Part shown: piece by piece, positions 1,330 to 19,178 of the stretch | Layout of the letters: each line of letters begins with the position of its first letter | Position numbering within the stretch: the stretch's first letter is position 1 | NCBI GenBank assembly: GCA_027045875.1 | Contig: JALUAG010000031.1 | Location: forward strand, 1 to 64,000 | DNA: 64,000 bases | Direction of reading: 5' to 3' | Source of the DNA: Alphaproteobacteria bacterium | GTDB lineage: Bacteria; Pseudomonadota; Alphaproteobacteria; Geminicoccales; Geminicoccaceae | Notes under the pieces: generated by a model | Databases searched by the model: none | Seen by the model: the letters and a program-made list of their open reading frames with translations, nothing else | Told to the model about the DNA's origin: nothing | Translations under genes and position numbers: made by a program

Positions 1330-1336
1330 GCGTTCT

Positions 1337-1684: not shown

Positions 1685-1723
1685 CGTCCGTTCCTTCCGC
1701 GCCGGCCGCCGGGGGCGGGGCGC

Positions 1724-2065: not shown

Positions 2066-2066
2066 C

Positions 2067-2610: not shown

Positions 2611-2637
2611 AAAAAAAGCCGCGGCCTAAGCCGCGGC
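2611..2637 (-). terminator. Strong intrinsic terminator of a small transcript
   Basis: On the minus strand an 8-bp perfect GC stem (GCCGCGGC, TTAG loop, GCCGCGGC) is followed by seven T residues. It acts only in the minus direction because the opposite strand has no T tract after the stem. There is no protein gene on this strand upstream of it before the allE stop at 2916, so it ends a short transcript, not a coding operon. Confidence 0.85.
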
Positions 2638-2725
2638 AGTGGTAGGGAGGAAACGCCTCAAGTCGGGTGTCACAGGGGAAATCCCATGAACACGGTACTC
2701 CTATGCATCATTTCTTCGATTGGCG
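2611..2725 (-). ncRNA. Putative small regulatory RNA upstream of crcB
   Basis: The minus strand between allE and crcB carries an intrinsic terminator with no gene to end. The sequence ahead of it is unusually AT-rich for this genome and contains a pyrimidine-rich UUUCCUCCCU stretch that could pair with Shine-Dalgarno sequences, as seen in some alphaproteobacterial sRNAs. The 5' end at about 2725 is a guess; a TTGCGC element about 20 bases upstream could be a -35 box but no clear -10 is seen. A five-codon frame (ATGGGATTTCCCCTGTGA) preceded by AGGAG lies inside, so a micropeptide or leader is an alternative reading. Confidence 0.4.
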
Positions 2726-2915
2726 CAATAGAAAACTTGCCTGCTGATTGAATTTCTTGAAACGATTTAGGAGAATATTGCGACAAGTTTCGTTAAAATT
2801 TTAGTCGCTTGCCATCCGTATCGGCGACACGGGGATCGTGTCTTCGGCGGAACACCGCCGCACGAGCCGGTCGCTGCGGCTCCGGGAGGTGACGGAAACG
2901 GCGATTCCCCGCCAC

Positions 2916-3782: not shown

Positions 3783-3786
3783 GCCT

Positions 3787-4725
3787 TCAGCCCTCCGGTG
3801 CGTGGTGCGCGTGCCAGTGCCGCGCGATGTCGATGCGTCGCGCGAACCACACGCCGGCGTGATCGCGGGCGTAGTCGAGGAACCGCGCGACCGCCGCCGC
3901 CCGCCCGGGACGGCCGGCGAGCCGGCAGTGGAGACCGACGGACATCATCTTGGGTGAGCCGGCCGCCCCCTCGGCGTAGAGGAGGTCGAAACTGTCGGCG
4001 AGATAGCGGAAGAACTGATCGCCGGCGTTGAAGCCCTGGGCCGTCGCGAAGCGCATGTCGTTGGCGTCCAGGGTGTAGGGCACGATCAGGAACGGGCCGT
4101 ACGGACCGCGGACCCAGTAGGGCAGATCGTCGGCGTAGGAATCGGCGCAGTAGAGGAACCCGCCCTCCTCCATCACCAACTCGAGGGTGTGCTCCGAACA
4201 GCGGCCGGTGTACCAGCCGAGTGGCCGCTCGCCGGTGACCTCGCCGTGGATGCGGATGGCGGCCTCCATGTGACGCCGCTCCTCGGCGCGGGGGATGTCG
4301 CGGTAGTCGATCCATTTGAGGCCGTGGCTCGCGATCTCCCAACCCGCCTCCTTCATGGCCGCCACGGCCTCGGGATTGCGGGCGAGGGCGGTGGCGACAC
4401 CGTAGACGGTGACCGGGACGCCGCGGCTCGTGAGGATCCGCCAGAGGCGCCAGAAGCCGGCGCGGGCGCCGTATTCGTAGATCGATTCCATGTTGGGATG
4501 GCGCCGGCCCGGCCAGGGTTCGGCACCCACGATCTCGGAGAGAAAGGCCTCCGAGGCGGTATCCCCGTGGAGGATGCAGCGCTCGCCGCCCTCCTCGTAG
4601 TTCACCACCACCTGCACGGCGATGCGCGCCCCGCCGGGCCAGCGGGGGTCGGGCGGATAGCGACCGTAGCCGACGAGATCGCGGGGGTACGCCGCCTGCG
4701 CCGGATCTGTCGCGGGGTCGGCCAT
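3787..4725 (-). CDS. puuE: Allantoinase PuuE (polysaccharide deacetylase-like fold)
   Basis: A 312-residue NodB-fold allantoinase that opens allantoin to allantoate. The start at 4725 is chosen because AGGAG sits seven bases upstream; an in-frame ATG at 4758 has no ribosome-binding site. Family hallmarks are VVNYEEGGERCILHGD near residue 40, HPNMESIYEYGARAGFWR, SHGLKWIDY, and GWYTGRCSEHTLELV. PuuE enzymes are cofactor-independent, unlike the amidohydrolase allantoinases. With allE directly downstream this forms a two-gene ureide operon. Allantoicase or ureidoglycolate enzymes, urate oxidase and transporters are not in the window. Confidence 0.9.
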   Translation of the reverse strand: MADPATDPAQAAYPRDLVGYGRYPPDPRWPGGARIAVQVVVNYEEGGERCILHGDTASEAFLSEIVGAEPWPGRRHPNMESIYEYGARAGFWRLWRILTSRGVPVTVYGVATALARNPEAVAAMKEAGWEIASHGLKWIDYRDIPRAEERRHMEAAIRIHGEVTGERPLGWYTGRCSEHTLELVMEEGGFLYCADSYADDLPYWVRGPYGPFLIVPYTLDANDMRFATAQGFNAGDQFFRYLADSFDLLYAEGAAGSPKMMSVGLHCRLAGRPGRAAAVARFLDYARDHAGVWFARRIDIARHWHAHHAPEG

Positions 4726-5373
4726 GCGATGCTCCTGCGGACGCTGCGTGTCGGACATGATGGCTGATAGGCGCAGATCCGCCCGTCGCGCAAGCCGGCC
4801 CCTCGGACGGCGGCAGGCGGTCCCCACGAGGGCGGACCGCTCGCGGGACCGTTTCCCGGCGCTGCGGGGCGTTCGTGTGCGGATCCCGCGGGACGGGATG
4901 TCGAGAAAGACATCCGCAGATAAGCGACGGAGAACGCGGCACCCTCGAGACGCTCTTGCGGGATCTCCATGTCCCTTCCGCAAAACATGTTCTCGACGAC
5001 ATCCGCTCCGTTTCCAACGTCGAGGGAAGCCGCCGCCGCTCGGCGTCGGGCGTCCGGCGTCGATGCCGAGGTTCGGCGAACTCGCACGGGAGAACCACGT
5101 GGTGAGTTGCGACTCCCTTGGCGCATCCGGTGGTTCCGCCTCGGCCGGAGGCCGCGGGCCGTACCTCCCGCCCACCGCCAGCGAAGCAACGGAACCGGGA
5201 CGCCCGGATCTCGACGGATCCAGCACGGGACGTCGTAGCCGGGAATCCGGCGACGCTCCCCCAGGATCTCGCGGCGATTTCGGAACGAGGCGACGGGAGC
5301 CCGTGGAACGCGCGGGTCCGTACCGCTCGCCGCCGCCCGAACATTGCGTTCGTGGGAGAGCGGGGAGCCGCGC
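4726..5373. other. 648-bp stretch with no recognisable gene, left of the element
   Basis: This stretch lies between puuE and the left attachment repeat. Open frames cross it on both strands, but none has a ribosome-binding site, a family motif or a sensible start. A perfect inverted repeat (GGATGTC, 6-base loop, GACATCC) lies at 4896-4915 and could be a regulatory site. The puuE promoter should also be here. Part of it may be decayed sequence from earlier insertion events at the same attachment site. Confidence 0.6.
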
Positions 5374-5429
5374 GATTTCGTTGGAGCGGGAGACGGGATT
5401 CGAACCCGCGACCCCAACCTTGGCAAGGT
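5374..5429. repeat. attL: left 56-bp attachment-site repeat (tRNA-Gly 3' fragment)
   Basis: These 56 bp are identical to 13619-13674. After one mismatch at 5430, four more bases (GTGC) also match before the sequences diverge. Bases 5382-5429 equal nucleotides 28-75 of the tRNA, that is the anticodon loop, T arm, acceptor 3' strand and CCA. The 5' half of a tRNA is absent here, so this is the displaced 3' end left by integration and not a second tRNA gene. Confidence 0.95.
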
Positions 5430-5545
5430 CGTGCCTAGGGTTTTCACGCGCCAGCAGGGGCCATCAGCGTTCACGAATAATCGCGTGCTAACAGCCTGTT
5501 ACCTCCATCAGGTGCACGCGGCCGCCATCAGCGGCTTGCATCCGC

Positions 5546-5567
5546 GTGTTAGATATGTGTTAGATCG
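5546..5567. repeat. Tandem GTGTTAGA motifs at left end (candidate integrase arm sites)
   Basis: Two copies of GTGTTAGA at 5546-5553 and 5557-5564, spaced 11 bp start to start, are followed by TCG. The same double motif with the same spacing and flank occurs at 13558-13579 near the right end; 19 of 22 bases match. Paired direct repeats inside both ends are what arm-type binding sites of a tyrosine recombinase look like. Confidence 0.6.
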
Positions 5568-5600
5568 CGTTGTTGGGATGTGCCCTGGAGGTGTGCTCTC

Positions 5601-6830
5601 GTGGCCGAGAAAATCCGCTTCACGACGCGCCGGATCGTGGCCCTGACCTGCCCGGAGGGGCGCCGGCATATCGACCTGTTCGACGCCGACCAGGCGGGCT
5701 TGGCGCTGCGGGTGACGGGAACGGGCACCAGGACGTTCTATGCCGTCTATCGCGTCGGGGCCGGCCGTGCGGGCAAGGTGCGCTGGCAGAAGATCGGGCG
5801 CCATCCCGAGATCGGCCCCGCGGAGGCCCGCCGCCGCGCTCGCGAAATCCTCGGGCAGGTGGTCCGGGGCGTCGATCCCGCGAGCGAGGAACGCAAGGCA
5901 CGGGTCGGCCGCCTGGGTGCGGCGATCGACGCTTACGCGGCCGACTGCGAGCGGCGCCGGCTGGTGGCCGCCAAGGTGCGCGTCAACCTGCTACGCCGGG
6001 AGCTGCTGGGCCGTTTCGGTGACGTTCCGCTCGACAGCCTCGACCGGCGCTCTCTGACAATGGCGGTCGCCGAGCTCGAAGCGAAGGGGCTCAAGGGCAA
6101 GGCGCAGGAGTTCCGCACCCGCACCGCGGTTTTTCTCAATTGGTGCGTCGATCAGGGGCTCTTGCAGGCCTCGCCTTTGGCCGGCTGGCGCCGTCCGCGG
6201 AGATCCCGGGCCGAGCGTCTGGAACGCCCCGGCCGCGCCCTCGAGGATGGGGAAATCCCGCTTCTGTGGCGTGCCTTCGAGGCCTCGCCCGATCCGATTT
6301 TCACCGCTTATCTCCGCATTCTGCTCCTGCTCGGCCAGCGCCGGACCGAAACCGCCCTGATGCGCTGGCGGGATGTGAACCTGAACGCGGGCCTGTGGAC
6401 GATCCCGGCGGAAGTCACCAAGGCTGGGCGCGAGCACAAGGTGCCGTTGCCGCGGGAGGTGATCGCCATCCTCGCCACACTGCCTAGGCTCGCGGGATCG
6501 GAGCTGGTGTTTCCGGGCCGCGGCGGCGCGCCGATGACCGGCTGGAGCAAGCGCATGCGCCCCGTCCGTGCCGCATCCCGCGAGCTCGGGCTGGAGCCCT
6601 GGACACTGCACGATCTGCGCCGGACGGTGCGCACCGGGCTCGCCCGTCTCGGCGTTCGTGACGAGATCGCCGAGCGCGCCCTGAACCACAGCGTTCGCGA
6701 CGTGCTGGCCGCCGTCTACGATCGCTCCGACCGGCTGGAGGAAATGCGCGAAGCGCTGACCCTTTGGGCCGGTCACGTGCTGGGGCTCGCACATGGCGGC
6801 AATCGCGCCCTTCGAGCGGCGGGGGATTGA
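5601..6830 (+). CDS. int: P4-type site-specific tyrosine recombinase (integrase)
   Basis: A 409-residue integrase that inserts and excises the island at the tRNA-Gly 3' end. An N-terminal DUF4102-type arm-binding domain (residues about 10-85, with LRVTGTGTRTFYAVYR and KIGRHPEIGPAEAR) precedes a SAM-like core-binding domain and the catalytic domain. Catalytic residues are seen as Arg in LLGQRRTE, Lys in TKAGREHKVPLP, HDLRR, His in LNHS and Tyr in VYDRS. GTG at 5601 is chosen because GGAGG lies about ten bases upstream; an in-frame ATG at 5580 is a weaker alternative. It lies just inside attL, at the end away from the tRNA, and its stop is two bases before the next start. Confidence 0.93.
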   Translation: MAEKIRFTTRRIVALTCPEGRRHIDLFDADQAGLALRVTGTGTRTFYAVYRVGAGRAGKVRWQKIGRHPEIGPAEARRRAREILGQVVRGVDPASEERKARVGRLGAAIDAYAADCERRRLVAAKVRVNLLRRELLGRFGDVPLDSLDRRSLTMAVAELEAKGLKGKAQEFRTRTAVFLNWCVDQGLLQASPLAGWRRPRRSRAERLERPGRALEDGEIPLLWRAFEASPDPIFTAYLRILLLLGQRRTETALMRWRDVNLNAGLWTIPAEVTKAGREHKVPLPREVIAILATLPRLAGSELVFPGRGGAPMTGWSKRMRPVRAASRELGLEPWTLHDLRRTVRTGLARLGVRDEIAERALNHSVRDVLAAVYDRSDRLEEMREALTLWAGHVLGLAHGGNRALRAAGD

Positions 6831-6832
6831 AG

Positions 6833-7483
6833 ATGGCGCGGCTAGTTTGGGGGATCGATTCCCGGACCGAACATCTGGGCTGGTTCTGCGACTGCGAAAC
6901 CGGAAAGATCGACATCTACGTTAGGGATTTGCTGATTTCGGATAGCGACCTGGAGGCCGACCGAGAGGCATGGCGCCACGTTCTTGACAGGCTCCGGGAC
7001 GCGATCGCCAAATCCGAGCGCCGCGAAGACGATCGGGCGCGGATTTCGGGAGAACATGCCCGCATGTTGGTCGCTCTGATCGAAGAAGGCACCCGCGGCC
7101 GTCTGCCGGTGAGCTGGGCCGAGCGTCTTCCTTCCTATCCGGTCGGTTGGGCGTCCTACTGGAACCTTTCGCTGCCACGGAAACGAAGGGACCGGCCGAG
7201 CATCGCGTCACGACAGCTTCGCGCGGTGGCTTATGTGGCTGCCGCCGAGCAATACGGGCTGGACCCGGACCCGATGGAGCGCATGCGCAACTACCTGCAC
7301 ATCAACGAGCGGAAGCACTGGGAAGATGTCTTCACGAAATTGAAGGGCGACGCCGGGCGGTATTTGGAAAGCATCATTTGGTCGGTGCGCCCATCTCCGG
7401 CTGTCTATCGGTTTGTCGCGGCACTCAACGCCGACCCTGAAGATGCCCGGCGTGCGTTACTTGACATGCTCGAGCTCGGCTAA
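6833..7483 (+). CDS. Hypothetical protein, satellite gene 2
   Basis: A 216-residue soluble protein I do not recognise. It starts at 6833, two bases after the integrase stop, which suggests translational coupling. It opens MARLVWGIDSRTEHLGWFCD, is rich in charged helices in the middle (ESKSERREDDRAR-like), and ends in a helical segment with PSPAVYRFVAALNADPED. No membrane segment, signal peptide or metal motif is visible. Its base composition looks slightly less GC-rich than its neighbours, consistent with acquired DNA. Its position between int and the AlpA-like gene is where some satellites carry regulatory or interference genes, but nothing in the sequence shows such a role. Confidence 0.75.
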   Translation: MARLVWGIDSRTEHLGWFCDCETGKIDIYVRDLLISDSDLEADREAWRHVLDRLRDAIAKSERREDDRARISGEHARMLVALIEEGTRGRLPVSWAERLPSYPVGWASYWNLSLPRKRRDRPSIASRQLRAVAYVAAAEQYGLDPDPMERMRNYLHINERKHWEDVFTKLKGDAGRYLESIIWSVRPSPAVYRFVAALNADPEDARRALLDMLELG

Positions 7484-7538
7484 GCTACCAATAGTGCACG
7501 GAAATTTTCTGGCCATTTGATTTCCGCGACAAGCGCGG

Positions 7539-7558
7539 AGCTATGCATATGGATAGCT
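7539..7558. promoter_or_regulatory. Inverted repeat ahead of the AlpA-like gene (candidate operator)
   Basis: AGCTAT at 7539-7544 and ATAGCT at 7553-7558 form an inverted repeat around an 8-base centre, in the 105-bp gap between genes 2 and 3. The gap is relatively AT-rich, and a TTGATT element at 7517-7522 could be a weak -35 box. This is the only long gap between the first genes of the island, so the promoter of the downstream operon probably lies here. Confidence 0.35.
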
Positions 7559-7588
7559 GCGGTCTCAACCCGACGCAGGAGATCGCCA

Positions 7589-7801
7589 ATGCGAGAGCGT
7601 GTATCGCCGTTTTTGACCACTGCCGAGGCCGCGCAGTATCTGCGCGTGAGTCGGCCGACTCTCGAAAGATGGAGGGGGGAGGGCCGCGGCCCCCGTTATC
7701 TGCGGGCCGGGTGGCGCTGCCTGTACAGGCGCGAGGATCTGGATGCGTTCGCCGGCCTCGCTCCCGAAGGTGATCACGAAACGCCTCGCCCGGCGGCGTG
7801 A
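7589..7801 (+). CDS. AlpA/excisionase-like helix-turn-helix protein
   Basis: A 70-residue DNA-binding protein of the excisionase/AlpA (HTH_17, MerR-like) kind. The core is FLTTAEAAQYLRVSRPTLERWRGEGRGPRYLRAG followed by a wing CLYRREDLDAF, residues about 8-55. The start at 7589 has GGAG seven bases upstream. In P4-like satellites and PICIs a protein of this type activates the integrase gene, the replication operon, or excision. It is the only recognisable transcription factor in the island; no CI- or Stl-like repressor is seen, which makes it the likeliest control gene. Confidence 0.85.
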   Translation: MRERVSPFLTTAEAAQYLRVSRPTLERWRGEGRGPRYLRAGWRCLYRREDLDAFAGLAPEGDHETPRPAA

Positions 7802-7807
7802 CGCGCC

Positions 7808-8374
7808 ATGCTCGAAACACGAAAACGCCCGCCGCGGGCGGCGGCGGGCGGTAACTCTCTTCGCAGAAGCGCTCGCCGAGAAGATACCGCCGGCGCCGCT
7901 GGGCCGCAACGTTTAACGCCGGAAAGGCGGGCCGCGCTGGGCATCCCGGCCGGCTGCGAGATCGTCGCGGGCGCGATGGCCTGGTGGTGCCGTTGCCCGA
8001 GCTGCACCTACGGCGTCGTGCCCTTGCTGCCCGACACCACCGGCAAGTTGGTGCCGTCGCCGCTCGGCGGGTGCCAGGGGCGCGGCTGGCGGTGCTCGTC
8101 GCGGCGGATTCGCGAGGCCTGGGAGGCCCTTCGTCAGGGCGTCGAGATCGAACCGACACCGGGCGAGGCGCGCCTGACCGGCGCGCTGCTTGTTCGTCGG
8201 CTTCCTGATTTGTGGTTCGGCCGCCGCGGCCGCGATCCGAGAACGGCACTCTATGCGGTTGCCCGCGAGCTCGACGAAATCACCCTGCCGCCGAGGCTGA
8301 TCCGCCTGGCCCTCGAAGCCCTGGCCGCCCGGCGTGGCTGGCCGGCGTATCACGTTCGAGCGGTGCTCCGATGA
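7808..8374 (+). CDS. Cys-rich hypothetical protein upstream of the replication ATPase
   Basis: A 188-residue protein of unknown function. After a basic, proline-rich N-terminus (about 40 residues) it has WWCRCPSC near residue 60 and GGCQGRGWRCSS near residue 93, a Cys pattern that could bind zinc. The C-terminal part is helical (LYAVARELDEITLPPRLIRLALEAL). Its TGA overlaps the ATG of the ATPase gene, so the two are translated together. A primase-type zinc domain or a replication accessory factor would fit the position, but I see no primase catalytic motif. No clear ribosome-binding site precedes 7808, so the true start could be slightly downstream. Confidence 0.65.
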   Translation: MLETRKRPPRAAAGGNSLRRSARREDTAGAAGPQRLTPERRAALGIPAGCEIVAGAMAWWCRCPSCTYGVVPLLPDTTGKLVPSPLGGCQGRGWRCSSRRIREAWEALRQGVEIEPTPGEARLTGALLVRRLPDLWFGRRGRDPRTALYAVARELDEITLPPRLIRLALEALAARRGWPAYHVRAVLR

Positions 8375-10155
8375 CGGCGCCCGACATGACGCCGCCCGAG
8401 CACGTCAAGAACGTGCTTGAGGGGGCCGACGAAGCCGCGCCCGCCGACAAGCAGACCCGCAGCGCTCGGGCGGTGCTGATGGACATCGCCAAGAGCTCGG
8501 CCAAGTTTATTCGCACCGCAGGCGGTGAGATATACGCGGTCGTGCAGGACGATGGCCCCCGGCGCGTCTGGCCGCTACGATCGCGCGCCTTTCGTCGGCA
8601 CATCCTGCGCTTGGCAATGAAGGAAACGGGCGCTCCGCCGGCTCCCGACGCTGTTGCCGCGGCGCTCGACGGGCTCGAAGCCACGGCCGACGCCGAAGCC
8701 GAGCGCGCCGAGGTTCACCAGCGGGTTGCGCACCAGGACGGCCGCATCTTTGTGGACTTGGGCGATGACACCTGGCGCGCCGTCGAGGTTTCGCCTGCCG
8801 GTTGGCGCATCCTCGAGAATCCGCCCACCTACTTTGTCCGCCGGCAGGGCATGCGGGCACTGCCGGAGCCCGTCCGTGGTGGGGATTTGGCCGGGCTGTT
8901 CCATCATCTCCCGGCGGGGCTCGATGGGCGATCCAAGATCCTGATCATCGGCTGGCTTTTGCAAAACTACTGGGGCGGGCCATATGCGGCACTCCTGGTC
9001 GAGGGCGAGGCGGGCTCCGGCAAGTCCACATTGTGCCGGCGCTTGGTGCGGCTTGTCGATCCGCGCCGGCCGGAGCTCAAGCGTCCTCCGAGGGACGATA
9101 CGCAGATATTCGTGCAGGCCGCACACGGCTACGTACTCGCGTATGACAATCTATCGGGTCTGCCGATCTGGCTGTCGGATACCCTGTGCGCGGTCGCCAC
9201 CGGCGGAGGTGATGAAAGGCGGAAGCTCTACACGGATGACGATGTGGTTTCGGCCGACGTTTGCCGCCCGCTCCTGCTGAACGGAATCGACAGCATCGCC
9301 TCGCGGGGCGACCTGCGAGACCGCGCGCTTCGCGTCGAGCTTTCGGCCATTCGGGACGACCGACGGCAGGACGAAGCCGAGCTCGAACAGGCGTTCGAGG
9401 CCGCTCTGCCGCGTCTCCTGGGTGCGATCTTCGACGCACTGGCCGAAGGATTGCGCAACTACGCGAAAACCCACCTTAACCGTCTGCCGCGGATGGCGGA
9501 CGCAGCGCGCTTCGTGGCCGCATGCGAGCCCGCCCTGCCGGCGGATCTGCGGGGCTTCGCGGATGCGATTTTCGAGCTTCGGGACAGCTACGCAAGCGAA
9601 GCCATCGAGAGCGACATCTTCGCACGCGAGATCGTCGGACTGATCCGTGAACGGGACGCCTGGAACGGCACGGCCGGCGAGCTGTTGGACACGCTCAACG
9701 GCCGCGTCACCGAGGATGTGCGGGAACGGAAAACCTGGCCGCAGACGGCTCGCGCGGTCAGCGGTCGCGTCCGGCGGGCTGCTGGCGATCTGCGCCGCCT
9801 GGCCGAGGGGGCGGTTGAAGTCGAATTTCTCCGCGCGGGCCACGAGCGGCGCCGGACCATCACGCTGCGGGCCATCCCCAAGGTACGGAAATCATCGTCC
9901 GCATCGTCCGCACCGTCCGTAGCCTTGAAAAACAACGGCTTAGCGCGGACGCAAAACGAGGGTGCGGACGCAAACCGTCCGCATACCGTCCGCAACCGTC
10001 CGCATACCGTCCGCACCAACTCATTGAAAAACCACGAAAAGACCGATGCGGACGGTGCGGACGGTAGATTGCATACCTTGGGGGTCGAACCCGGCGACGG
10101 TGCGGTGTGCCCTCGCTGCGCCGGCGAGGGCTGCGCCTGGTGTGCTGGTCCCTAA
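8371..10155 (+). CDS. Replication ATPase/helicase, SF3/D5-like, of the satellite
   Basis: A 594-residue protein, probably the replicative helicase. The ATPase domain occupies about residues 195-380: Walker A GEAGSGKST near 212, Walker B-like YVLAYDNLSG near 255, an SF3 motif C-like PLLLNGID, and the arginine finger region RGDLRDRALRVEL. The first 190 residues are poorly recognisable and the C-terminus ends with a possible zinc knuckle, CPRCAGEGCAWC. Residues about 510-570 are low-complexity because the DNA there is an iteron array. The ATG overlaps the previous stop; an upstream in-frame extension to 8212 lies inside the previous gene and is rejected. I see no primase active site. Confidence 0.78.
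   Translation: MTAPDMTPPEHVKNVLEGADEAAPADKQTRSARAVLMDIAKSSAKFIRTAGGEIYAVVQDDGPRRVWPLRSRAFRRHILRLAMKETGAPPAPDAVAAALDGLEATADAEAERAEVHQRVAHQDGRIFVDLGDDTWRAVEVSPAGWRILENPPTYFVRRQGMRALPEPVRGGDLAGLFHHLPAGLDGRSKILIIGWLLQNYWGGPYAALLVEGEAGSGKSTLCRRLVRLVDPRRPELKRPPRDDTQIFVQAAHGYVLAYDNLSGLPIWLSDTLCAVATGGGDERRKLYTDDDVVSADVCRPLLLNGIDSIASRGDLRDRALRVELSAIRDDRRQDEAELEQAFEAALPRLLGAIFDALAEGLRNYAKTHLNRLPRMADAARFVAACEPALPADLRGFADAIFELRDSYASEAIESDIFAREIVGLIRERDAWNGTAGELLDTLNGRVTEDVRERKTWPQTARAVSGRVRRAAGDLRRLAEGAVEVEFLRAGHERRRTITLRAIPKVRKSSSASSAPSVALKNNGLARTQNEGADANRPHTVRNRPHTVRTNSLKNHEKTDADGADGRLHTLGVEPGDGAVCPRCAGEGCAWCAGP
9896..10063. repeat. Iteron-like array of CGTCCGCA in both orientations (candidate origin)
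   Basis: About eleven copies of CGTCCGCA or its complement fall within 168 bp. Forward copies start at 9896, 9905, 9914 (last base pairs vary), 9976, 9987, 9997 and 10008; inverted copies start at 9944 (one mismatch), 9963, 10047 and 10056. Spacing is regular, 9 to 11 bp, near one helical turn. Two A-rich spacers (around 9925-9935 and 10021-10040) split the clusters. The array sits in the 3' coding end of the ATPase gene, the position at which SaPI-type islands keep their replication origin relative to rep. Confidence 0.75.
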
Positions 10156-10178
10156 CATGCTGAGAATGGGAGTTTGCG

Positions 10179-10358
10179 ATGATCCCTACCTGGCCCGACC
10201 TGCTCCGCGGCTTCGCCCGCCAGGAGACCCGGCGCCCGAGCGAACGCTACACGCAGCTTCGCTTGCAGGCGGTTGTGGCCGGCATCGCCGAGCCTCGCGA
10301 CGGGCTCGAATACCTGGTTGCCGCGATGGCCGAAGCGCAGCGGCGGAAGCGGACGTGA
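10179..10358 (+). CDS. Small hypothetical protein (59 aa), satellite
   Basis: A 59-residue basic protein starting MIPTWPDLLRGFARQETRRP and ending in an Arg/Lys-rich tail. It follows the ATPase stop by 23 bases. Its TGA overlaps the GTG start of the HExxH protein, matching the coupled style of the whole operon. A weak GGGAG lies about ten bases upstream of the ATG. No family is recognised. It is too short to assign and could be a helper-interaction or regulatory peptide; that is a guess. Confidence 0.55.
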   Translation: MIPTWPDLLRGFARQETRRPSERYTQLRLQAVVAGIAEPRDGLEYLVAAMAEAQRRKRT

Positions 10359-11050
10359 CCGCTGTCGCGCGTCTTCTCGACCGGGTGGCCGAGATCGACC
10401 GGCGCGCTTCGTTCGAGACCATTTTCGCGGTGAAACTCGAACGCGCCGAGATCGACGCTGCCGCGGCGGCGCTGGCGGGCGCCACAGGACAGGATGCCGA
10501 ACCGCCTCGCGGCGCCCTCTGCAAGCGGATCGCCGCGTCGCATGAAAGCGGGCACTGCATCACCGACGCGACGTTGGGCACCGTGCCTCGCGTAGCGCTG
10601 ATCTTCTACGAGCCCGCCCGCCGGGACTGGTGCGGCCACGTCGTGCCGCGTTGTCCTGTGGCGACGGCCGCCCTCGAGACTCTGCCGCCGGCCACCCTCG
10701 CCACGTTGCTCTTGGCAGCATTCGGCGGCGCTGCCGGGGCCGTGACGGCTGTCGGCCCGGCGGGTCTTGCCGGTGCGCATCATGAGCTCTTGGCGGCGCA
10801 GCGTCTCGCGGAGCGACTACGACCGGGCGATCCGCCGGCACCGATCATGCTCGCCGCGTTCGTGATCGCCTGCGCGGTGATCGAGCGCCACCGTCGCACG
10901 TTCGACCGGCTGCGCCGGCGCCTGGAACGCCGCCACCGGCTCGACGCCGACGAACTCGCCCGATTGTTGCGCCACGTCCGGCCCGATCCGCGGGCACCGG
11001 CGCGGCTGCTTTCCTTCGTCGATAACCCCCAGCAGGAGAAAACGACATGA
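10355..11050 (+). CDS. Putative HExxH metalloprotease (M41-like), satellite
   Basis: A 231-residue protein starting at GTG 10355, which overlaps the preceding TGA. It carries AASHESGHCITDATLG near residue 65, an HExxH zinc motif with the HExGH form seen in FtsH-type M41 peptidases, followed by VALIFYEPARRDWCGHVV. A second half has Ala-rich hydrophobic segments (LATLLLAAFGGAAGAV and IMLAAFVIACAVI) and a basic tail. There is no AAA ATPase domain, so it is not a full FtsH. Stand-alone M41-like proteins occur in phages; possible roles are cleavage of a repressor, a helper protein or a phage structural protein. Activity is inferred from one motif. Confidence 0.6.
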   Translation: MTAVARLLDRVAEIDRRASFETIFAVKLERAEIDAAAAALAGATGQDAEPPRGALCKRIAASHESGHCITDATLGTVPRVALIFYEPARRDWCGHVVPRCPVATAALETLPPATLATLLLAAFGGAAGAVTAVGPAGLAGAHHELLAAQRLAERLRPGDPPAPIMLAAFVIACAVIERHRRTFDRLRRRLERRHRLDADELARLLRHVRPDPRAPARLLSFVDNPQQEKTT

Positions 11051-11643
11051 TCCTGAACCGCGATAGCGATCTGAAGCACTTGAAGGCGCTCGAAGCCGCC
11101 TATATCGAGACGGCCGGACGCCGGCGAAACCTGCTCGATCGCAAGGCCGCCCTGCTCGACAAGGCGCGGGATGCGGACGCCAAAGCGGCAAAGCTCCGAA
11201 GCCAGGCCGACGCCCTGCGCGCACGCATTGCGACCGAGATGGGCGCGGATTTGGATATCCTCGACCAGGCCGACGCGATCGAGAGCCGTGCCCGCCAGGC
11301 CGAAGCGACCGCTTCATCGCTGCGAAAGAGCGCGGCCGAGCTCGATATCGTGGCGCACGAGGCCCGCGGCTATGAGGCGATGGCGTATCTCGGCGCGCTG
11401 ATCGAGCACCGGCGCGAGAAGCTTCTCGGCCATCTTCTGAAGGACAAGACGGCCCGCTCGCTGCTGCTCGACTGGCTCGCGGCAATCCGCGCTGCCGGCT
11501 GGCGCGAGCTCCGGCAGGACGGCCACATGGATCTGCCGATCCCGCTGGCGTCGGCGCTCGGCACTGCCGAGAAGCAGGGGCTCGCCCTGCGGCAGAGTCT
11601 CGAGGATGCGGTCGAGCGAGCGCGACGGGGCGACAAGTCATGA
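11047..11643 (+). CDS. Coiled-coil hypothetical protein, satellite
   Basis: A 198-residue, strongly helical protein. Residues about 5-110 look like a continuous coiled coil (AAYIETAGRRRNLLDRKAALLDKARDADAKAAKLRSQ-type heptads), followed by a globular C-terminal part with LLDWLAAIRAAGWRELRQDGH. The ATG overlaps the preceding stop (ATGA). There is no signal peptide or membrane segment. Structure-like coiled-coil proteins next to small terminases can be scaffold or size-redirecting proteins in satellites (compare P4 Sid), but nothing here beyond the predicted coil supports that role. Confidence 0.65.
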   Translation: MILNRDSDLKHLKALEAAYIETAGRRRNLLDRKAALLDKARDADAKAAKLRSQADALRARIATEMGADLDILDQADAIESRARQAEATASSLRKSAAELDIVAHEARGYEAMAYLGALIEHRREKLLGHLLKDKTARSLLLDWLAAIRAAGWRELRQDGHMDLPIPLASALGTAEKQGLALRQSLEDAVERARRGDKS

Positions 11644-11846
11644 GCGCGCAACGGTGGCAATTGGTCGTGCACGACGAAGGCGCCCGGCTGCTGGTTCTCG
11701 TCTACGAGGGCACGCGGCTGGCGGCCGAGATCGAGCTTTCCCGGCTGGACGCCTTCCGCATCGCTTCCGAGCTCCTGGAGGCGGGATTGCGCCGGGCGCC
11801 GAGTACGACACCGCAGACCGTCAGCGGCGAGCGGAGGTTGCAGTGA
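11640..11846 (+). CDS. Small hypothetical protein (68 aa), satellite
   Basis: A 68-residue protein starting MSAQRWQLVVHDEGARLLVLVYEGTRLAAEIELSRLDA. Its N-terminal half looks like two or three beta strands and the rest like a helix. It overlaps both neighbours: its ATG lies in the stop of the coiled-coil gene and its TGA overlaps the GTG of ssb. Family unknown. The tight overlaps and intact frame argue that it is translated. Confidence 0.55.
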   Translation: MSAQRWQLVVHDEGARLLVLVYEGTRLAAEIELSRLDAFRIASELLEAGLRRAPSTTPQTVSGERRLQ

Positions 11847-12298
11847 CCGCACAACTGGCTGTTCACGGCCGCCTGGGCGATGCTCCGAAGGCGATCACCA
11901 CCAGCAGCGGCAGGGCGATGGCGACCGCGAGCCTGGCCGTCTCAATAGAGGAGCACGGCAACGCTGATCCTCCGCCCCTGTGGCTCAACGTGATCGCCTT
12001 CGCCCGGCTCGCAGAGGAGCTGCTGCGCCACCACAAGGGCGATCTGCTCTCGGTCGCCGGCAAGCTTCAACGCAAGCGCTGGGTCGGCCAGGACGGGCAG
12101 GAACGCGAGCGGTGGGAGGTGGTGGCCGATGTCATCATCTCGGCCAGGACCGTGCGCCCTGGTGGCGGCAGGAAGCGCGAGAACGAGCGATCCGGCCCGG
12201 TGGAGGCCCGTCATGCCGTCCGTGTCCAGGCGCCCGATAGCGAGGCCCACCAGCGGCAGGAAGCGGTGCCCTTCGATGACGAAATCCCGTTCGGCTGA
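11843..12298 (+). CDS. ssb: Single-stranded DNA-binding protein
   Basis: A 151-residue SSB. The OB fold covers about residues 3-100 (LAVHGRLGDAPKAIT, ASLAVSIEE, LWLNVIAFARLAEELL, KGDLLSVAGKLQRKRW, ERWEVVADVIISARTV). A linker follows, and the C-terminus ends DDEIPFG, close to the acidic DDDIPF tip that SSBs use to contact replication proteins. GTG at 11843 overlaps the previous TGA. An own SSB next to a replication ATPase and an iteron array supports autonomous replication of the island after excision. Confidence 0.88.
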   Translation: MTAQLAVHGRLGDAPKAITTSSGRAMATASLAVSIEEHGNADPPPLWLNVIAFARLAEELLRHHKGDLLSVAGKLQRKRWVGQDGQERERWEVVADVIISARTVRPGGGRKRENERSGPVEARHAVRVQAPDSEAHQRQEAVPFDDEIPFG

Positions 12299-12314
12299 GG
12301 CCCCCCCAGGGGCG

Positions 12315-12350
12315 GGTCAAATCTCTGTGGCCTATCGGGTGGCGATAGGC
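12315..12350. other. Hairpin and flanking motif upstream of terS (candidate packaging or control site)
   Basis: In the 104-bp gap between ssb and the small terminase gene, GGTCAAATCTCTG (12315-12327) is followed by an 8-bp perfect stem, GCCTATCG and CGATAGGC, around GGTGG (12330-12350). There is no T tract, so it is not a terminator. A second small palindrome, GTGAA-GTT-TTCAC, lies at 12375-12387. Terminase small subunits often bind sites beside or inside their own genes, which makes this gap a reasonable place for a pac or cos site. The 11-mer GGTGGCGATAG at 12338-12348 recurs at 12874-12884. Confidence 0.4.
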
Positions 12351-12402
12351 GAGGGCGCCCGAAATTTGCTAATCGTGAAGTTTTCACACTTGGAGACGAC
12401 GA

Positions 12403-12846
12403 ATGCGCAAGCGCGGTAGACCGAGCTCCGACGAAATCGCGACGGCGAACGTGGTGCAGCTTCGCGTGCCCGAGCGGCCGGCGCCGCCGAAATCCCTGAC
12501 CCGCGAGCAAGCGGAAGTCTGGCGCGAGATCGTGGCCTCCGTGCCCGCCGACTGGTTTCCACGCGAAACGCACCCGCTCCTCGAACAGCTTTGCCGGCAT
12601 ACCGTCGAAGCGAACCGCATCGCGAAGCTGATCGACGAAGCCACCCGGCAGATGGGAGAACGCCGCCCCGGCGCGACAGAAACCTACCTCAAGCTTCTGC
12701 AAGCCCAGCGGCGGGAGACGGCCAGCCTGAAGAGCCTCGCGGTCGCACTTCGGCTGTCGCCATCCTCGAGGATGCGTCCCGAGGTGGCGGGAAGGCGGCG
12801 CCAGGAGCCCGCAGCGGGCGATCGGCGCCCTTGGGAAGGCGATTGA
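12403..12846 (+). CDS. terS: P27-family phage terminase small subunit (orphan)
   Basis: A 147-residue small terminase that would recognise packaging DNA and recruit a large terminase. Family features are an N-terminal RKRGRPSS, the proline-rich PERPAPPKSLTREQAEVWREIVASVPADWFP near residue 25-55, and the helical segment HPLLEQLCRHTVEANRIAKLI. The start has GGAG upstream. No large terminase, portal or capsid gene follows. PICIs use precisely such lone small terminases to divert a helper phage's packaging motor. A stranded prophage remnant is the alternative, but the frame is intact and embedded among island genes. Confidence 0.85.
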   Translation: MRKRGRPSSDEIATANVVQLRVPERPAPPKSLTREQAEVWREIVASVPADWFPRETHPLLEQLCRHTVEANRIAKLIDEATRQMGERRPGATETYLKLLQAQRRETASLKSLAVALRLSPSSRMRPEVAGRRRQEPAAGDRRPWEGD

Positions 12847-12879
12847 GGGCGTTTTTGCGTGCCGGGGGGTGCCGGTGGC

Positions 12880-12900
12880 GATAGAATGGGTCATTCTATC
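12880..12900. promoter_or_regulatory. Perfect 9+3+9 palindrome ahead of gene 12914 (candidate operator)
   Basis: GATAGAATG at 12880-12888 and CATTCTATC at 12892-12900 flank GGT. The palindrome ends three bases before the GGGAGG ribosome-binding site of the next gene. There is no T tract, so a repressor or activator site, or an RNA hairpin controlling translation, is more likely than a terminator. The left arm overlaps the 11-mer GGTGGCGATAG that is also present upstream of terS. Confidence 0.6.
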
Positions 12901-12913
12901 AAGGGAGGATGTC

Positions 12914-13216
12914 ATGCGCGATAGCAAGCCCATTGCCGAGCTCCGTTTCCGCGAGGGCACCGTCTACCTGCACGACAGGGCAAAGCTCCCGGCCCGCCGC
13001 ATCCGCGGAACCGACTTGCAGGGGTTCTGGCCTGCTTCCGATGGCGGCGTTTGGTGCCAGCAATACGGCATGGTCGCTTCGCTGTCTCCGAATGCCATGC
13101 CGCCCGGTGACTGGGAGTGGTCCCGCCGTGCCGAGGCTGCGACGTTCGCCGCTCTCGCCCGGCTGATGGAGAGAGCCCGGCGGGAATGGCTGGCGGAAGG
13201 CGAACGCGCCGCCTGA
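12914..13216 (+). CDS. Hypothetical protein (100 aa), satellite
   Basis: A 100-residue protein with GGGAGG six bases before its ATG, the clearest ribosome-binding site in the island's right half. The sequence begins MRDSKPIAELRFREGTVYLHDR, has several aromatic residues in the middle (GFWPASDGGVWCQQYG) and ends in a helix with many Arg and Glu residues. No family is recognised. It is preceded by the 21-bp palindrome and overlaps the next start codon, so the two genes form a separately regulated pair after terS. Confidence 0.65.
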   Translation: MRDSKPIAELRFREGTVYLHDRAKLPARRIRGTDLQGFWPASDGGVWCQQYGMVASLSPNAMPPGDWEWSRRAEAATFAALARLMERARREWLAEGERAA

Positions 13217-13506
13217 TGCCTCGCCTGCCGGACATGACCGATCACGTCCAGCTCATCGGTTACACGGCCGACGGCGTGGCGGTGTCGGTCTGTGGGATCG
13301 ACCTTTACGTGTACCTGTGGGATCGCGATCCGGCCAATGTCGCCGGCGTTCGCCTTCACGCAGGCCCGGACATCAGCAACGAACTCGCCACCGAGCTTCT
13401 GTCGGCCCTCGGCGCTCCCTTCGAGCCCGGCCGCACTTGCAAGAGTTGGTCGGCCGTCTGGCAGCTAGAGCGGGCCTTGGAGCGCATCCTGCCGACGATC
13501 CTCTAA
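13216..13506 (+). CDS. Hypothetical protein (96 aa), last satellite gene
   Basis: A 96-residue protein that starts in the TGATG overlap with the previous gene. It has an alternating beta-like stretch (VQLIGYTADGVAVSVCGIDLYVYLW) followed by helices with DISNELATELLSALG. Family unknown. It ends 18 bases before the strong terminator at 13525. A role cannot be assigned from sequence. Confidence 0.6.
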   Translation: MPRLPDMTDHVQLIGYTADGVAVSVCGIDLYVYLWDRDPANVAGVRLHAGPDISNELATELLSALGAPFEPGRTCKSWSAVWQLERALERILPTIL

Positions 13507-13524
13507 TCGCTGCGCCCCGTCGAG

Positions 13525-13551
13525 ACGGCCCCCGCGAGGGGCCGTTTTTTT
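13525..13551 (+). terminator. Intrinsic terminator at the end of the satellite operon
   Basis: ACGGCCCC and GGGGCCGT form an 8-bp stem around a 5-base loop, followed by a run of seven T residues (13545-13551). It stops rightward transcription before the attachment site and the oppositely oriented tRNA gene. Confidence 0.9.
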
Positions 13552-13557
13552 GTCCCG

Positions 13558-13579
13558 GTGTTAGACGGGTGTTAGATCG
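13558..13579. repeat. Tandem GTGTTAGA motifs at right end (candidate integrase arm sites)
   Basis: Copies at 13558-13565 and 13569-13576 repeat the left-end arrangement (5546-5567) with the same 11-bp period and the same following TCG. Only three bases differ between the two ends. Confidence 0.6.
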
Positions 13580-13618
13580 GGCCGGTTCCCGGTGCTTTGC
13601 GGTGGCCGCTAAGCCTTT

Positions 13619-13674
13619 GATTTCGTTGGAGCGGGAGACGGGATTCGAACCCGCGACCCCAACCTTGGCAAGGT
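13619..13674. repeat. attR: right 56-bp attachment-site repeat within tRNA-Gly
   Basis: Identical to 5374-5429. It covers nucleotides 28-75 of the tRNA plus eight bases beyond the CCA. The core includes the anticodon stem-loop (CCTTGCCAAGG on the tRNA strand), a symmetrical sequence favoured by tyrosine recombinases. The element restores the tRNA 3' half, so the gene stays functional. Confidence 0.95.
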
Positions 13675-13701
13675 TGTGCTCTACCCCTGAGCTACTCCCG
13701 C
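13627..13701 (-). tRNA. tRNA-Gly(GCC)
   Basis: The minus strand folds as a complete 75-nt tRNA: acceptor GCGGGAG/CTCCCGC, D arm GCTC-AGGGGTA-GAGC, anticodon stem CAACC/GGTTG with loop TTGCCAA (anticodon GCC), variable loop GGGTC, T arm GCGGG-TTCGAAT-CCCGT, discriminator T and encoded CCA. It is the integration target of the island to its left. Confidence 0.97.
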
Positions 13702-13888
13702 GACCGCGCTGCCGGCGGGTGCCGGCCGGACGCGGCCGTATCTAGGCGATCGCCGGGGCCTTGGCAAGAGCGGCCGGGGCCCGGTCCGAGGCTTGTAACG
13801 CCGCCCGCGACTGGCCATCTTAGCGGCGACGGGAACGAGCGGTCGGCGCCTCACCGGCCGCCTCCACATGGTCGAAGGATGCCGCGCC

Positions 13889-14800
13889 ATGCAGATACTC
13901 GGTGGGACCGCCGCCAAGCCATCCGACGGCGACGAGATCATCAAGGACGGCGATATCGAGAGCTTCGCCCGCGACGTCATCTACGCCTCGCAGCAGGTGC
14001 CGGTGCTGGTCGATTTCTGGGCCCCCTGGTGCGGCCCCTGCAAGCAGCTCGCCCCGGTGCTGGAGAAGGTGGTGCGCGCCGCCAAGGGCAAGGTGCGGCT
14101 GGTCAAGATCAACATCGACGAGAACCCGGAACTCGCCCAGCAGCTCCGCATCCAGTCGGTGCCCACGGTCTACGCCTTCGTCGGCGGCCAGCCGGTGACC
14201 GGCTTCGCCGGCGCCCAGCCGGAAAGCCAGATCCGGGCGCTCGTGGAGCGGCTCATCGGAGGGCCGCTCGCGGCCGATGTCGAGGCCGAGCTCGCGGCCG
14301 GCAAGGCGGCCCTCGAGCGGGGCGAGGTGGAGACCGCCGCCGCCCATTTCAGCCGGGTGCTGGAGACGGACCCCGAGAACCCCGAGGCGCTCGGCGGCAT
14401 CGCCCGGGCGCTCCTGAGCATGGGGGAGCGCGAGGAAGCACGACGGCTGCTCGACGAGGTGCCCAAGGCGGTTGCCGGTCATGCCGCCATCGCCGGCGCA
14501 CGTGCGGCGCTGCAGCTCGCCGAGGAGGCGGGCGAGATACCCGACCCGGCCGGGCTGGAGGCGCGGATCGCCGCCGATCCGGACGATTTCGAGGCCCGTT
14601 ATCAGCTCGCCACCAGTCTCTTCCTGCGCGGCCAGTACGAAGCGGCGATGGAACATCTCCTCCACATCGTGAAGCGGGATCGCCACTGGCGGGACGAGCT
14701 CGCCCGCAAGCAGCTCCTCAGGTTCTTCGACGCTCTCGGGCCTTCCCATCCCGCTACTCTCAAGGGCCGGCGCATGCTGTCGACGGTGCTGTTCGCCTGA
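13889..14800 (+). CDS. Thioredoxin-fold TPR co-chaperone (CnoX/YbbN-like)
   Basis: A 303-residue protein with a thioredoxin domain (residues about 15-120, DFWAPWCGPCKQLAPVLEKV with a full CGPC site) followed by TPR-like helices (AAGKAALERGEVETAAAHFSRVLETDPENPEALGG). CnoX proteins hold unfolded or oxidised clients and pass them to GroEL. E. coli CnoX has lost its redox Cys pair, while alphaproteobacterial forms often keep it, as here. ATG at 13889 is chosen because GAAGGA sits upstream; an in-frame ATG at 13868 has none. Its stop overlaps the start of the LON-domain gene. Confidence 0.87.
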   Translation: MQILGGTAAKPSDGDEIIKDGDIESFARDVIYASQQVPVLVDFWAPWCGPCKQLAPVLEKVVRAAKGKVRLVKINIDENPELAQQLRIQSVPTVYAFVGGQPVTGFAGAQPESQIRALVERLIGGPLAADVEAELAAGKAALERGEVETAAAHFSRVLETDPENPEALGGIARALLSMGEREEARRLLDEVPKAVAGHAAIAGARAALQLAEEAGEIPDPAGLEARIAADPDDFEARYQLATSLFLRGQYEAAMEHLLHIVKRDRHWRDELARKQLLRFFDALGPSHPATLKGRRMLSTVLFA

Positions 14801-15444
14801 TGTCGGCGGTCGGCGAGACCCTGCCCGAGCATTTCCCGGTCTTTCCCCTCCGGGGCGCCCTGCTGCTGCCGGGTGGCAACCTGCCGCTGCGCATCTTCGA
14901 GCCCCGCTATCTCGTGATGCTTCGCGACGCGATGCGCACGGCCGAGGTGATCGGCATGGTCCAGCCGCGGTCCCACGGGGAGGATTCGGCGGTGCCCGCC
15001 CTCTACCGCACGGGCTGCCTCGGTCGCATCACCCGCGTGGAGGAGCAGGAGGACGGTCGCTACGCCATCACCCTGACCGGAATGTGCCGCTTCGACATCG
15101 TTGAGGAGGTGCCGTCCGCCACCCCCTACCGCCAGGTGCGGGCCGATTTCGGCCGCTGGCGGCACGATCTGGCTCCGGCCGGCCCCTTGAGCGGAGTGCG
15201 CGACCGGCTGATGCCACGGCTGCGCACCTATCTCGAGACCCTGGGCATCGAGGCCCGCTGGTCGGGGCTGGAGGAGGCGCCGCTGCCGGGCCTGATCACC
15301 ACCCTGGCCATGGTGCTGCCCTTCGCTCCCGACGAGAAGCAGGCTTTCGTCGAGGCCCACGGGCTCGCCGACCAGGCCGAGCTGTTGATCACTCTCCTGG
15401 AGATGGCGCTGGCCGGCGAGCCCGAGGACGGCCCGCCGCACTGA
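14800..15444 (+). CDS. LON peptidase substrate-binding domain protein
   Basis: A 214-residue protein with only the Lon N-terminal (substrate-binding) domain: [34 protein letters not shown] at residues about 12-45, then [27 protein letters not shown]. There is no AAA or protease domain. Its function in bacteria is unknown; it is probably a client-binding accessory protein. The ATG overlaps the TGA of the thioredoxin/TPR gene and the Trm112-like gene follows closely, so the run from 13889 to 16073 looks like one operon concerned with protein quality. Confidence 0.9.
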
Positions 15445-15466
15445 GACCGGAACGAGGACCGTGGCC

Positions 15467-15712
15467 ATGAGCGACACCGCGAAGGAACCCGAGATCGACC
15501 CCCGTCTTCTGGAACTCCTCGTCTGTCCGCTCACCAAGGGGCCGCTGCGCTACGACCGGATACGCAACGAGCTCGTGAGCGAGCAGGCGGGGCTCGCCTA
15601 CCCGATCCGCGACGGCATTCCGGTGATGCTGGTGGACGAGGCGCGCCGGCTGGGCGAGGACGAGGCCATTCCGCCGGAGCTGCGGGCGGGGAAGGACGAT
15701 GAAGGCGCCTGA
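15467..15712 (+). CDS. Trm112 family protein
   Basis: An 81-residue Trm112-like protein. The core is [47 protein letters not shown], residues about 13-60. In eukaryotes Trm112 activates methyltransferases; the bacterial short forms have no settled role. GAGGA lies eight bases before the ATG at 15467, which is preferred over the GTG at 15461. Its 3' end overlaps the start of the DUF971 gene by 14 bases, a pairing that is common in alphaproteobacteria. Confidence 0.9.
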
Positions 15713-16073
15713 CCGCCACGATCCCTGGCCCAGGGAGATCCGGGTCTACCGCGCCGAGAAGCGGCTCGAGATCGACTTCGACGACGGCACCACCTTCAAT
15801 CTGCCGGCGGAGCTCCTCCGGGTGGAGAGCCCCTCGGCCGAGGTGCAGGGGCACAGCCCGTCGCAGAAGGTCACGGTGCCCGGCAAGCGGGACGTGGGCA
15901 TCGTCTCGCTGGAGCCGGTGGGCAACTACGCGGTGCGCATCCTGTTCGACGACGGCCACGACACCGGCATCTACTCCTGGTCCTATCTCTACGAACTGGG
16001 GCGCGACCAGGCCGAGATCTGGGCCGCCTACCTGCGGGCGCTGGAGGAGAAGGGGCTCGCGCGGGATCCCTGA
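15699..16073 (+). CDS. DUF971 domain protein
   Basis: A 124-residue protein of the DUF971 family, homologous to the small N-terminal domain of gamma-butyrobetaine hydroxylase. The features are [40 protein letters not shown] and the C-terminal [25 protein letters not shown]. Free-standing DUF971 proteins are linked to iron-sulfur metabolism in some bacteria, but the role here is open. It overlaps the Trm112 gene and converges with the DUF599 gene, sharing 46 bases at the 3' ends. Confidence 0.9.
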
Positions 16074-16813
16074 GGCGCGACCCCCGCTACCGCCTCCGCC
16101 GGGATCACCGGCTCGCCGATGCGGCCCAGCACCCCGAGCATGTGGGAGCGGAACTCGCGGCGGTAGACGACCAGCACGACCCAGGCGCTGGCCAGGATCA
16201 GTACATAGGGATGGACGAACCAGCCGAGGGCGGCGAGGCCGAAATAGTAGGCCCGCATGCCGCGGTTGAAATGGTCGCCGGCGCGGGTCGCCACTTCGGC
16301 CGCCCGGTGGGCGAAGGCCCCGGCCCCCGGCACCGCCGGGGCGGGCGCGGCCCCCAGCACGACGGCGAGATAGTTGAACTGCCTGAGCGACCAGGTGAAC
16401 TTGAAGAAGGCATAGACGAAGACGAGCACCAGCAGCAGCACCTTGAGGTCCCAGACCAGGGGTGCCACCTGCTCGGCGAAGGGGATGTGGCGGATCACCT
16501 GCATGGCCTTCTCGCCCGCGCCCAGAATGGCGACCAGGCCGCCTACGATCAGCACGGCGCCGGAGGCGAAGAAGGAGATGTTCTGGACCAGCAGCCGGAC
16601 GATGGCGATGTCGACGATCCGGTTCTCGCGCGCCAGCATCTGCTCCATCCAGGCGAGCCGGTATTCGTGCACCCGCGCCGCCAGGGTATTGCGGCGCGCC
16701 CGCTGGCGGTCGGCGAAGCGGGCGTAGCCGATCCAGCAGAGGAAGAACCAGAGCGGTGCCAGCAGATTGGCGACGCCCAGCTCGGTCAGCAACGCACCGG
16801 TATCGACAGCCAT
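16028..16813 (-). CDS. DUF599 family membrane protein
   Basis: A 261-residue inner-membrane protein with about four transmembrane segments (near residues 10-28, 75-97, 122-143 and 200-222). It shows the family pattern of NTLAARVHEYRLAWMEQMLARENRIVDIAI and FNRGMRAYYFGLAALGWFVHP. Function unknown. The last 15 codons overlap the DUF971 gene on the other strand. Confidence 0.85.
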   Translation of the reverse strand: MAVDTGALLTELGVANLLAPLWFFLCWIGYARFADRQRARRNTLAARVHEYRLAWMEQMLARENRIVDIAIVRLLVQNISFFASGAVLIVGGLVAILGAGEKAMQVIRHIPFAEQVAPLVWDLKVLLLVLVFVYAFFKFTWSLRQFNYLAVVLGAAPAPAVPGAGAFAHRAAEVATRAGDHFNRGMRAYYFGLAALGWFVHPYVLILASAWVVLVVYRREFRSHMLGVLGRIGEPVIPAEAVAGVAPQGSRASPFSSSARR

Positions 16814-17231
16814 CGCCGCTCGTCCCTAAGAGCCCGTTCACGACGCCGTACCGTGCCTGTATGGAGGGGGGTGATCGCCGGCCGCAAGCCCAGGTCGCGG
16901 GCGTTTCGCGTGACACTTGACGAAACGATTTTTTTGTCGTCTTTGGGTTGCGGGACGTGTCGGAGGAGGGCGCTTCCCGCCAGTCGCGAAACCGGATGTC
17001 GTCGCAGGGACTTACCCACAACCTGTTGGTAAGGTTGGGGATAGTCTGACCTGCCGCACGGCCGTGTGGACAGCCCTGTGGAGGATCGGGGGAAAGCCCG
17101 GGTTGCGGCGACCGCGGGAACACGTGATATTGCGGCAAAAGGTCTTGCCTCGCTTGAGCGGGCGTGGCGCCCTGTGAGATGCAGGCGACACGCCGACGAG
17201 ACGCATGCCGCCGACTATCTGGGAGGGTGCC
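16814..17231. other. 418-bp intergenic region upstream of acs with DnaA-box-like 9-mers
   Basis: No gene is seen. A short AT-rich tract (around 16919-16945) precedes three 9-mers resembling the DnaA box TTATCCACA: TTACCCACA at 17012-17020, and the complements TGTGGACAG at 17065-17073 and TGTGGAGGA at 17077-17085. A possible acs promoter is TTGCGG (17103-17108), 17 bases, then GATATT (17126-17131). The region lies between divergent genes (DUF599 and acs), so it must hold promoters for both. Confidence 0.45.

Positions 17232-19178
<1,947 letters not shown>

Follow-up and report, generated by a model that had tools for sequence, protein, structure and literature searches.

Genes and boundaries of the element

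The window analyzed here, 64,000 nucleotides of an alphaproteobacterial contig (JALUAG010000031.1, family Geminicoccaceae), contains an 8.3-kb element at positions 5374-13679 that is integrated in a tRNA-Gly gene and flanked by 61-bp direct repeats with 98% identity. The left copy, attL (5374-5434), is a truncated copy of the tRNA-Gly end, and the right copy, attR (13619-13679), overlaps the intact tRNA-Gly gene predicted at 13627-13701. The locus is unoccupied in G017, a second genome from this genus, where about 0.3 kb separates the counterparts of the flanks (window 4-2812 and 13616-17819) and the repeat is present once. Since window 2813-5372, in which we read two host-type genes, likewise has no counterpart in G017, the left edge of the element rests on the repeat. 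A third genome of the genus (G016) matched the right flank only.

All of the genes lie on the forward strand. The tyrosine integrase (5580-6830; PF00589, E 2.6e-16, and PF13356; phrog_1, E 4.3e-53) is followed by a protein without assignment (6833-7483; no family at E <0.1), an AlpA-like helix-turn-helix regulator or excisionase (7589-7801; HTH_17, E 1.1e-12; phrog_66, E 7.4e-9), a protein with Cys pairs and no family (7808-8374), and a P-loop replication ATPase/primase-like protein (8371-10155; AAA_22, E 5.8e-5). Beyond these lie a protein with an HExxH-type motif, HESGH, visible in its sequence (10355-11050; no family), a probable coiled coil protein, so read by eye (11047-11643; no family), a small ORF without assignment (11640-11846), and a single-strand DNA-binding protein, SSB (11843-12298; PF00436, E 6.2e-15; phrog_44, E 2.7e-22). 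A candidate packaging site on the same strand (12308-12391) precedes terS (12403-12846), which encodes a small terminase. As the original prediction had it, this full-length gene is followed by two small ORFs (12914-13216 and 13216-13506), for both of which family searches were blank, a terminator-like hairpin with a T-run on the forward strand (about 13522-13548) and attR. The hairpin, tested individually, had a fold z of -2.9; it is absent from the list produced by a pattern scan for terminators, and that scan gave no excess over shuffled sequences.

Repeated CCGTCCGCA-type words occur in the 3' portion of the replication gene (9863-10096). One stretch (9973-10014) is a perfect tandem repeat of 21 bp, and the region also contains an imperfect inverted repeat of 53 nt. 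We regard these repeats as a candidate replication origin.

The integrase with a specific att site and the AlpA-type regulator by which PICIs are recognized are thus both present. Structural and lysis gene families were absent from the element proteins scanned, several of which belong to no family at all, and none of the genes that mark cf-PICIs (portal, protease, TerL, and a capsid of their own) was recognized in the element.

An orphan small terminase with an HK97-like fold

The TerS ORF is intact, encodes 147 amino acids and is the third-last gene of the element. Residues 1-146 match phrog_12559, annotated as terminase small subunit, with an E value of 1.1e-26, and phrog_83 is matched at E 2.7e-9. 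A structure model built on 32 aligned sequences (pLDDT 79, pTM 0.64) has an HK97-like fold: the top five Foldseek rows were all the HK97 small terminase, at modest E values of 0.1-0.95, and a second structural comparison placed HK97 TerS first with a Z score of 12.8 (rmsd 2.0 over 99 residues), the next unrelated row scoring 8.3. A sequence search of the PDB with TerS gave no match. The protein had been called a P27 TerS, and that label is right at the level of fold and superfamily, where HK97 TerS is the best structural match, but not as a curated-family call, as both curated P27-type models remained below their cut-offs (PF05119, 19.1 of 24.7 bits; TIGR01558, 19.1 of 45.6 bits). The conserved core block (residues 47-66) has 0.75 identity to phages, and in every region the window TerS is more distant from phages than phages are from one another.

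There is no TerL inside the element, and none of the type paired with this TerS in its own 3.5-Mb genome, which bears out the claim of a TerS without its large subunit. This is not the normal state for the family, because a TerL, identified with a profile made from 14 phages, adjoins TerS in 64 of 64 viral loci and in 9 of 11 genome loci. The two remaining genome loci, L067 (Propylenella binzhouense) and L075 (Consotaella salsifontis), are both tRNA-Lys elements with TerS and without TerL, so the orphan state recurs. In L067 the integrase lies at 3643-4872 and the repeat, 52 bp long, copies the tRNA-Lys end; L075 has an integrase and a 48-bp repeat at tRNA-Lys. Their backbones are unlike that of the window element, they too keep the orphan terS towards the tRNA end, and in each a capsid-like protein (phrog_617; E 5.9e-18 in L067 and 3e-17 in L075) is encoded upstream of terS.

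Within 385 genomes of the class, the TerS profile matched three, one of them the element's own; of the others, G256 has a TerL and G121 appears to be a broken prophage. The L075 capsid also matched three of these 385 genomes, and TerL matching our profile A1 (A1-type TerL) was found in none of the three loci from that scan. In two of the three, L119 and L120, the capsid gene has a TerS-like neighbor (phrog_83, E 3.3e-7 and 0.0088). An HK97-type capsid gene (phrog_617) with no A1-type TerL is present in five loci (L067 8077-9225, L075 8246-9295, L119 8518-9573, L120 9607-10773, and L121 9104-10213), and a TerS match lies near the capsid in four of the five, two of these matches being moderate or weak.

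A more distant TerS-like ORF, also without A1-type TerL, occurs in L094, from genome G004 of the same host family. A protein with a HEAGH motif (L094 8396-8974) adjoins this orphan ORF, its counterpart in the window being the HESGH protein; the two share a short alike stretch only, with E 8e-4 for one pair.

A lone terS could be the leftover of a degraded prophage that has lost its TerL and structural genes, and remnants of this kind do seem to exist. Locus L112, for example, has HNH-like and TerS ORFs, no A1-type TerL and a lysozyme-like ORF nearby (HNH and lysozyme labels read by eye). For the window element we consider such an origin improbable, given that no structural remnants were recognized in 8.3 kb, that the genes stand in a compact, operon-like order with replication gene and SSB intact, and that both att copies are kept at near identity.

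A candidate packaging site before terS

Across 24 phage sequences, the DNA upstream of terS has in common a G-run, an ACCG core, a CTAA box, and an A-tract. We built a profile of this DNA from 33 non-redundant stretches, excluding the window; they remained after dereplication of 43 phage stretches in which terS is preceded by 110 nt or more. The profile matched the window at one place, 12308-12379 (E 0.0016; next best 7.9). The best score among 60 simulated windows was 5.8 against 13.4 in the window, a value that none of the 60 reached. In leave-one-out tests 26 of the 33 phage sites scored at least 13.4, and the window site is at the weak end of the phage sites. A sequence-only covariance model of 24 phages gave its best score in the entire genome of 3.5 Mb to 12308-12391, at E 2.8e-4 against 0.078 for the next place. 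The same model recognized phage KpF5, which had been held out of it (E 6.9e-9), and L067 (E 9.3e-5), and gave no score before the terS of L075. The window site keeps the G-rich run and the CTAA-box region, and its ACCG core and A-tract are altered. A further match to the model (R1), of 16.5 bits, in L094 (1372-1449, reverse strand) lies 8 kb from any terS and is either model background or a relic.

The ends of viral sequences point to the stretch before terS as a possible starting place for packaging. Of 64 viral contigs, 29 have their first nucleotide no more than 130 nt upstream of terS, where 0.9 would be expected. The linear sequence record of PAJU2, a Pseudomonas phage, stops inside the ACCG core, 50 nt short of terS, and has the G-run at its other end. 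HK97 TerS is described as binding DNA downstream of the cos cut, at a distance of 15 to 29 bp (available text of PMC11331095). The window site could be of the cos or the pac type: an alphaproteobacterial phage, of Brucella, has a terminase resembling that of phage D3 and those of phages with cohesive ends, yet no cohesive ends were detected for it according to the part of PMC4729917 that we could draw on. Ten letters common to window 12355-12364 and the PAJU2 end lie 48 nt before the ATG in the window and 49 nt in PAJU2; we discounted this word as evidence, as it was picked post hoc and occurs in 33 of 100 shuffles. We treat 12308-12391 as a candidate cos-like packaging site, apparently the one that matches TerS.

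Known satellites interfere with phages through TerS-related proteins, one of which, Rpp, binds phage TerS (PMC6739421, in its available portion). The window TerS might on this precedent serve defense only, competing with the TerS of an incoming phage for TerL or for the site and so blocking packaging. We hold this to be highly improbable, as none of the eight other element proteins tested had a convincing defense family, and a site of the element's own points to packaging.

The C-terminal tail of TerS

A C-terminal motif, RPExA, occurs in 3 of 81 TerS proteins, these being the three putative satellite proteins of the window, L067, and L075. Over the last 29 residues, L067 and L075 are 43-45% identical to the window TerS, and phages 22% on average. 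The tail is evidently not the sole divergent part of the protein. In the TerS model RPExA sits where the predicted last helix (residues 126-134) begins. For HK97 TerS, PMC11331095 reports, in the text accessible to us, that DNA is read by N- and C-terminal segments and that the site is read by the arginine with which the C-terminal helix begins; by analogy, the motif suggests a satellite-specific reading of DNA by the tail.

The three proteins did not come together in the TerS tree, and two label changes are required. L067 and L075 group together (100/94), and the window TerS is a long branch elsewhere with weak support; their common RPExA tail could accordingly reflect convergence or recombination.

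A later IMG/VR scan with an alignment of satellite TerS (A6) returned 80 loci. All 57 with new identifiers, many of them the same contigs re-fetched, have a TerL and none has an RPExA tail; a packaged satellite of this kind was thus not among them.

The replication backbone and its relatives

Relatives of the replication protein were found in 14 other genomes, seven in a first scan and seven more in a later one. Neither an A1-type TerL nor this TerS was detected at any of the 14 loci, several of which are on short contigs. The original prediction would have been undermined by relatives that encode TerL, and none was seen at these loci or in L067 and L075. Other TerS types were scanned for in the proteins of four of the 14 loci, and a TerS was seen at one, L092, from the same host family. 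It is a 6.2-kb element (L092 7293-13595) between 69-bp repeats at tRNA-Lys, and its last sizeable gene encodes an orphan TerS (phrog_57, E 3.1e-9) that is also a phage TerS by tblastn and belongs to what we take to be the Nu1 type. Judging from these loci, the TerS type varies between backbones.

Another relative, L088 from G017, encodes a replication protein 82% identical to that of the window and a stretch related to the Cys-pair protein. It stands beside a tRNA-Thr gene, has an internal stop and no terS, and by its sequence is a decayed cousin of the element. Searches of IMG/VR through the replication protein, the integrase and the L075 and L067 capsids confirmed no relatives, with a peptide-pattern method that finds close relatives only.

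Plasmids, often small ones and for the most part non-mobilizable, also carry this replication protein (28 records, with Streptomyces, Methylobacterium, and Methanothrix among the hosts), and the backbone is therefore not peculiar to satellites. The matches comprised small plasmids and one actinophage, with no PICI record identified among them. Two Methylobacterium plasmids list no terminase, most of their products being called merely "hypothetical".

These plasmid relatives, together with the single TerS among 14 related loci and the loss of the core and A-tract of the site, are what would be expected if a plasmid-like or other integrative element had acquired terS, together with the DNA before it, by recombining with a phage, and carried them as passengers, without packaging. 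We think this unlikely, because terS is open over its full length with its core block conserved, site and gene are retained together, and L067 and L075, on other backbones, also keep an orphan terS towards the tRNA end.

The helper phage

A helper using a P27-type TerS had been expected in the host lineage, and a prophage with a P27 TerS/TerL pair in the same genome had been proposed as the place to look. Such a helper was not supported: no PF03354 TerL was detected in the 31 genomes of the host family, the element's own included (controls were positive in 3 of 14 genomes), and the TerL profile A1, in a search without a positive control, found nothing in the host-family genomes, again including its own. 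We therefore rejected a prophage resident in the genomes examined as the helper. That the host lineage lacks any P27-type phage had been named in advance as a finding against the proposal; it holds for resident prophages in these 31 genomes, and a visiting phage that enters from outside may still act as the helper.

A probable satellite that would redirect a helper's TerL

Our favored interpretation, to which we give a probability of roughly 0.7, is that of an integrated phage satellite that uses a TerS-cos cassette of its own to recruit the TerL of a helper. The redirection of a helper TerL by a lone TerS, as originally proposed, is the best reading because TerS is a genuine orphan, the arrangement recurs in L067 and L075, and a phage-type site lies before the gene; strict membership in the PICIs is not established, the replication protein resembling one of small plasmids. 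Counting against the satellite interpretation are the lack of PF03354 and A1 TerL in the 31 host-family genomes, the altered core and A-tract, the low rank of the site among phage sites, the silent L075 site, the L094 match, the Brucella phage for which no cohesive ends were detected, and the plasmid-like replication protein.

In the scheme that we envisage, the element would excise upon entry or induction of a helper phage, and would replicate with its own ATPase and SSB. A ring of TerS would then bind the site before its own gene and recruit the helper TerL, which would cut at this site and fill procapsids of the helper with satellite DNA. The C-terminal segment peculiar to the satellite TerS, whose counterpart in HK97 helps to form the sequence-reading part, would give the satellite a site specificity of its own.

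More tentatively, and with somewhat less than even confidence, we suggest that the element represents an undescribed group of alphaproteobacterial satellites. Its members would carry a portable cassette of site and orphan TerS distal to the integrase, with the RPExA segment telling satellite from helper DNA while the same TerL is used, and the cassettes would be swapped between replication backbones. Examples of such exchange would be an HK97-type cassette in the window element, a Nu1-type cassette in L092, and an HK97-type cassette with a capsid gene in L067 and L075.

Comparison with known systems

If correct, the satellite interpretation would extend TerS-redirecting satellites to the Alphaproteobacteria and to HK97-type terminases, for which DNA recognition is known at atomic level. 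It would allow a direct test of the joint change of TerS and site by which a satellite seizes the motor, and the combination of site, TerS tail and missing TerL could serve to search for satellites that may escape current finders. The candidate phage-like site just upstream of the orphan terS is an addition to the original prediction. No TerS satellites were found described in Alphaproteobacteria in a limited literature search, in which absence is no proof.

The element resembles phages of the HK97/PAJU2 type in the fold and family of its TerS and in the site before terS (as seen in PAJU2 and KpF5), but such phages have a TerL and a virion, and the element has neither. Like the PICMIs of Vibrionaceae, it would be a minimal satellite without recognized capsid genes; unlike PICMI115, for which the available text of PMC10803314 identifies no TerS or packaging site, it has a TerS and a candidate site. 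The relatives L067, L075, L119, and L120 recall the cf-PICIs in pairing a capsid-like gene with TerS, whereas cf-PICIs, as far as PMC10690885 could be drawn upon, also encode TerL, portal, protease, and connectors, and A1-type TerL was not found in these four loci. With cos PICIs of the EcCICFT073 type the element shares a satellite-borne cos-like site that differs in part from the phage site. However, those satellites are described, in the portions of PMC6092414 and PMC6739421 at hand, as having no TerS and using Rpp with the helper TerS, whereas the window element encodes a complete TerS.

The element would work most like a TerS-encoding PICI, the packaging itself being inferred. It has in common with TerS-encoding PICIs and SaPIs a small size, an integrase at one end, an AlpA-type regulator, replication genes, and the absence of recognized phage structural and lytic genes, and an orphan TerS is sometimes present in PICIs (PMC6092414, from its available part). 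It differs from them in having an HK97-type TerS beside a phage-type site and a replication protein related to those of small plasmids, and in its alphaproteobacterial host, PICIs being listed in Firmicutes and Gammaproteobacteria in the accessible text of PMC10803314.
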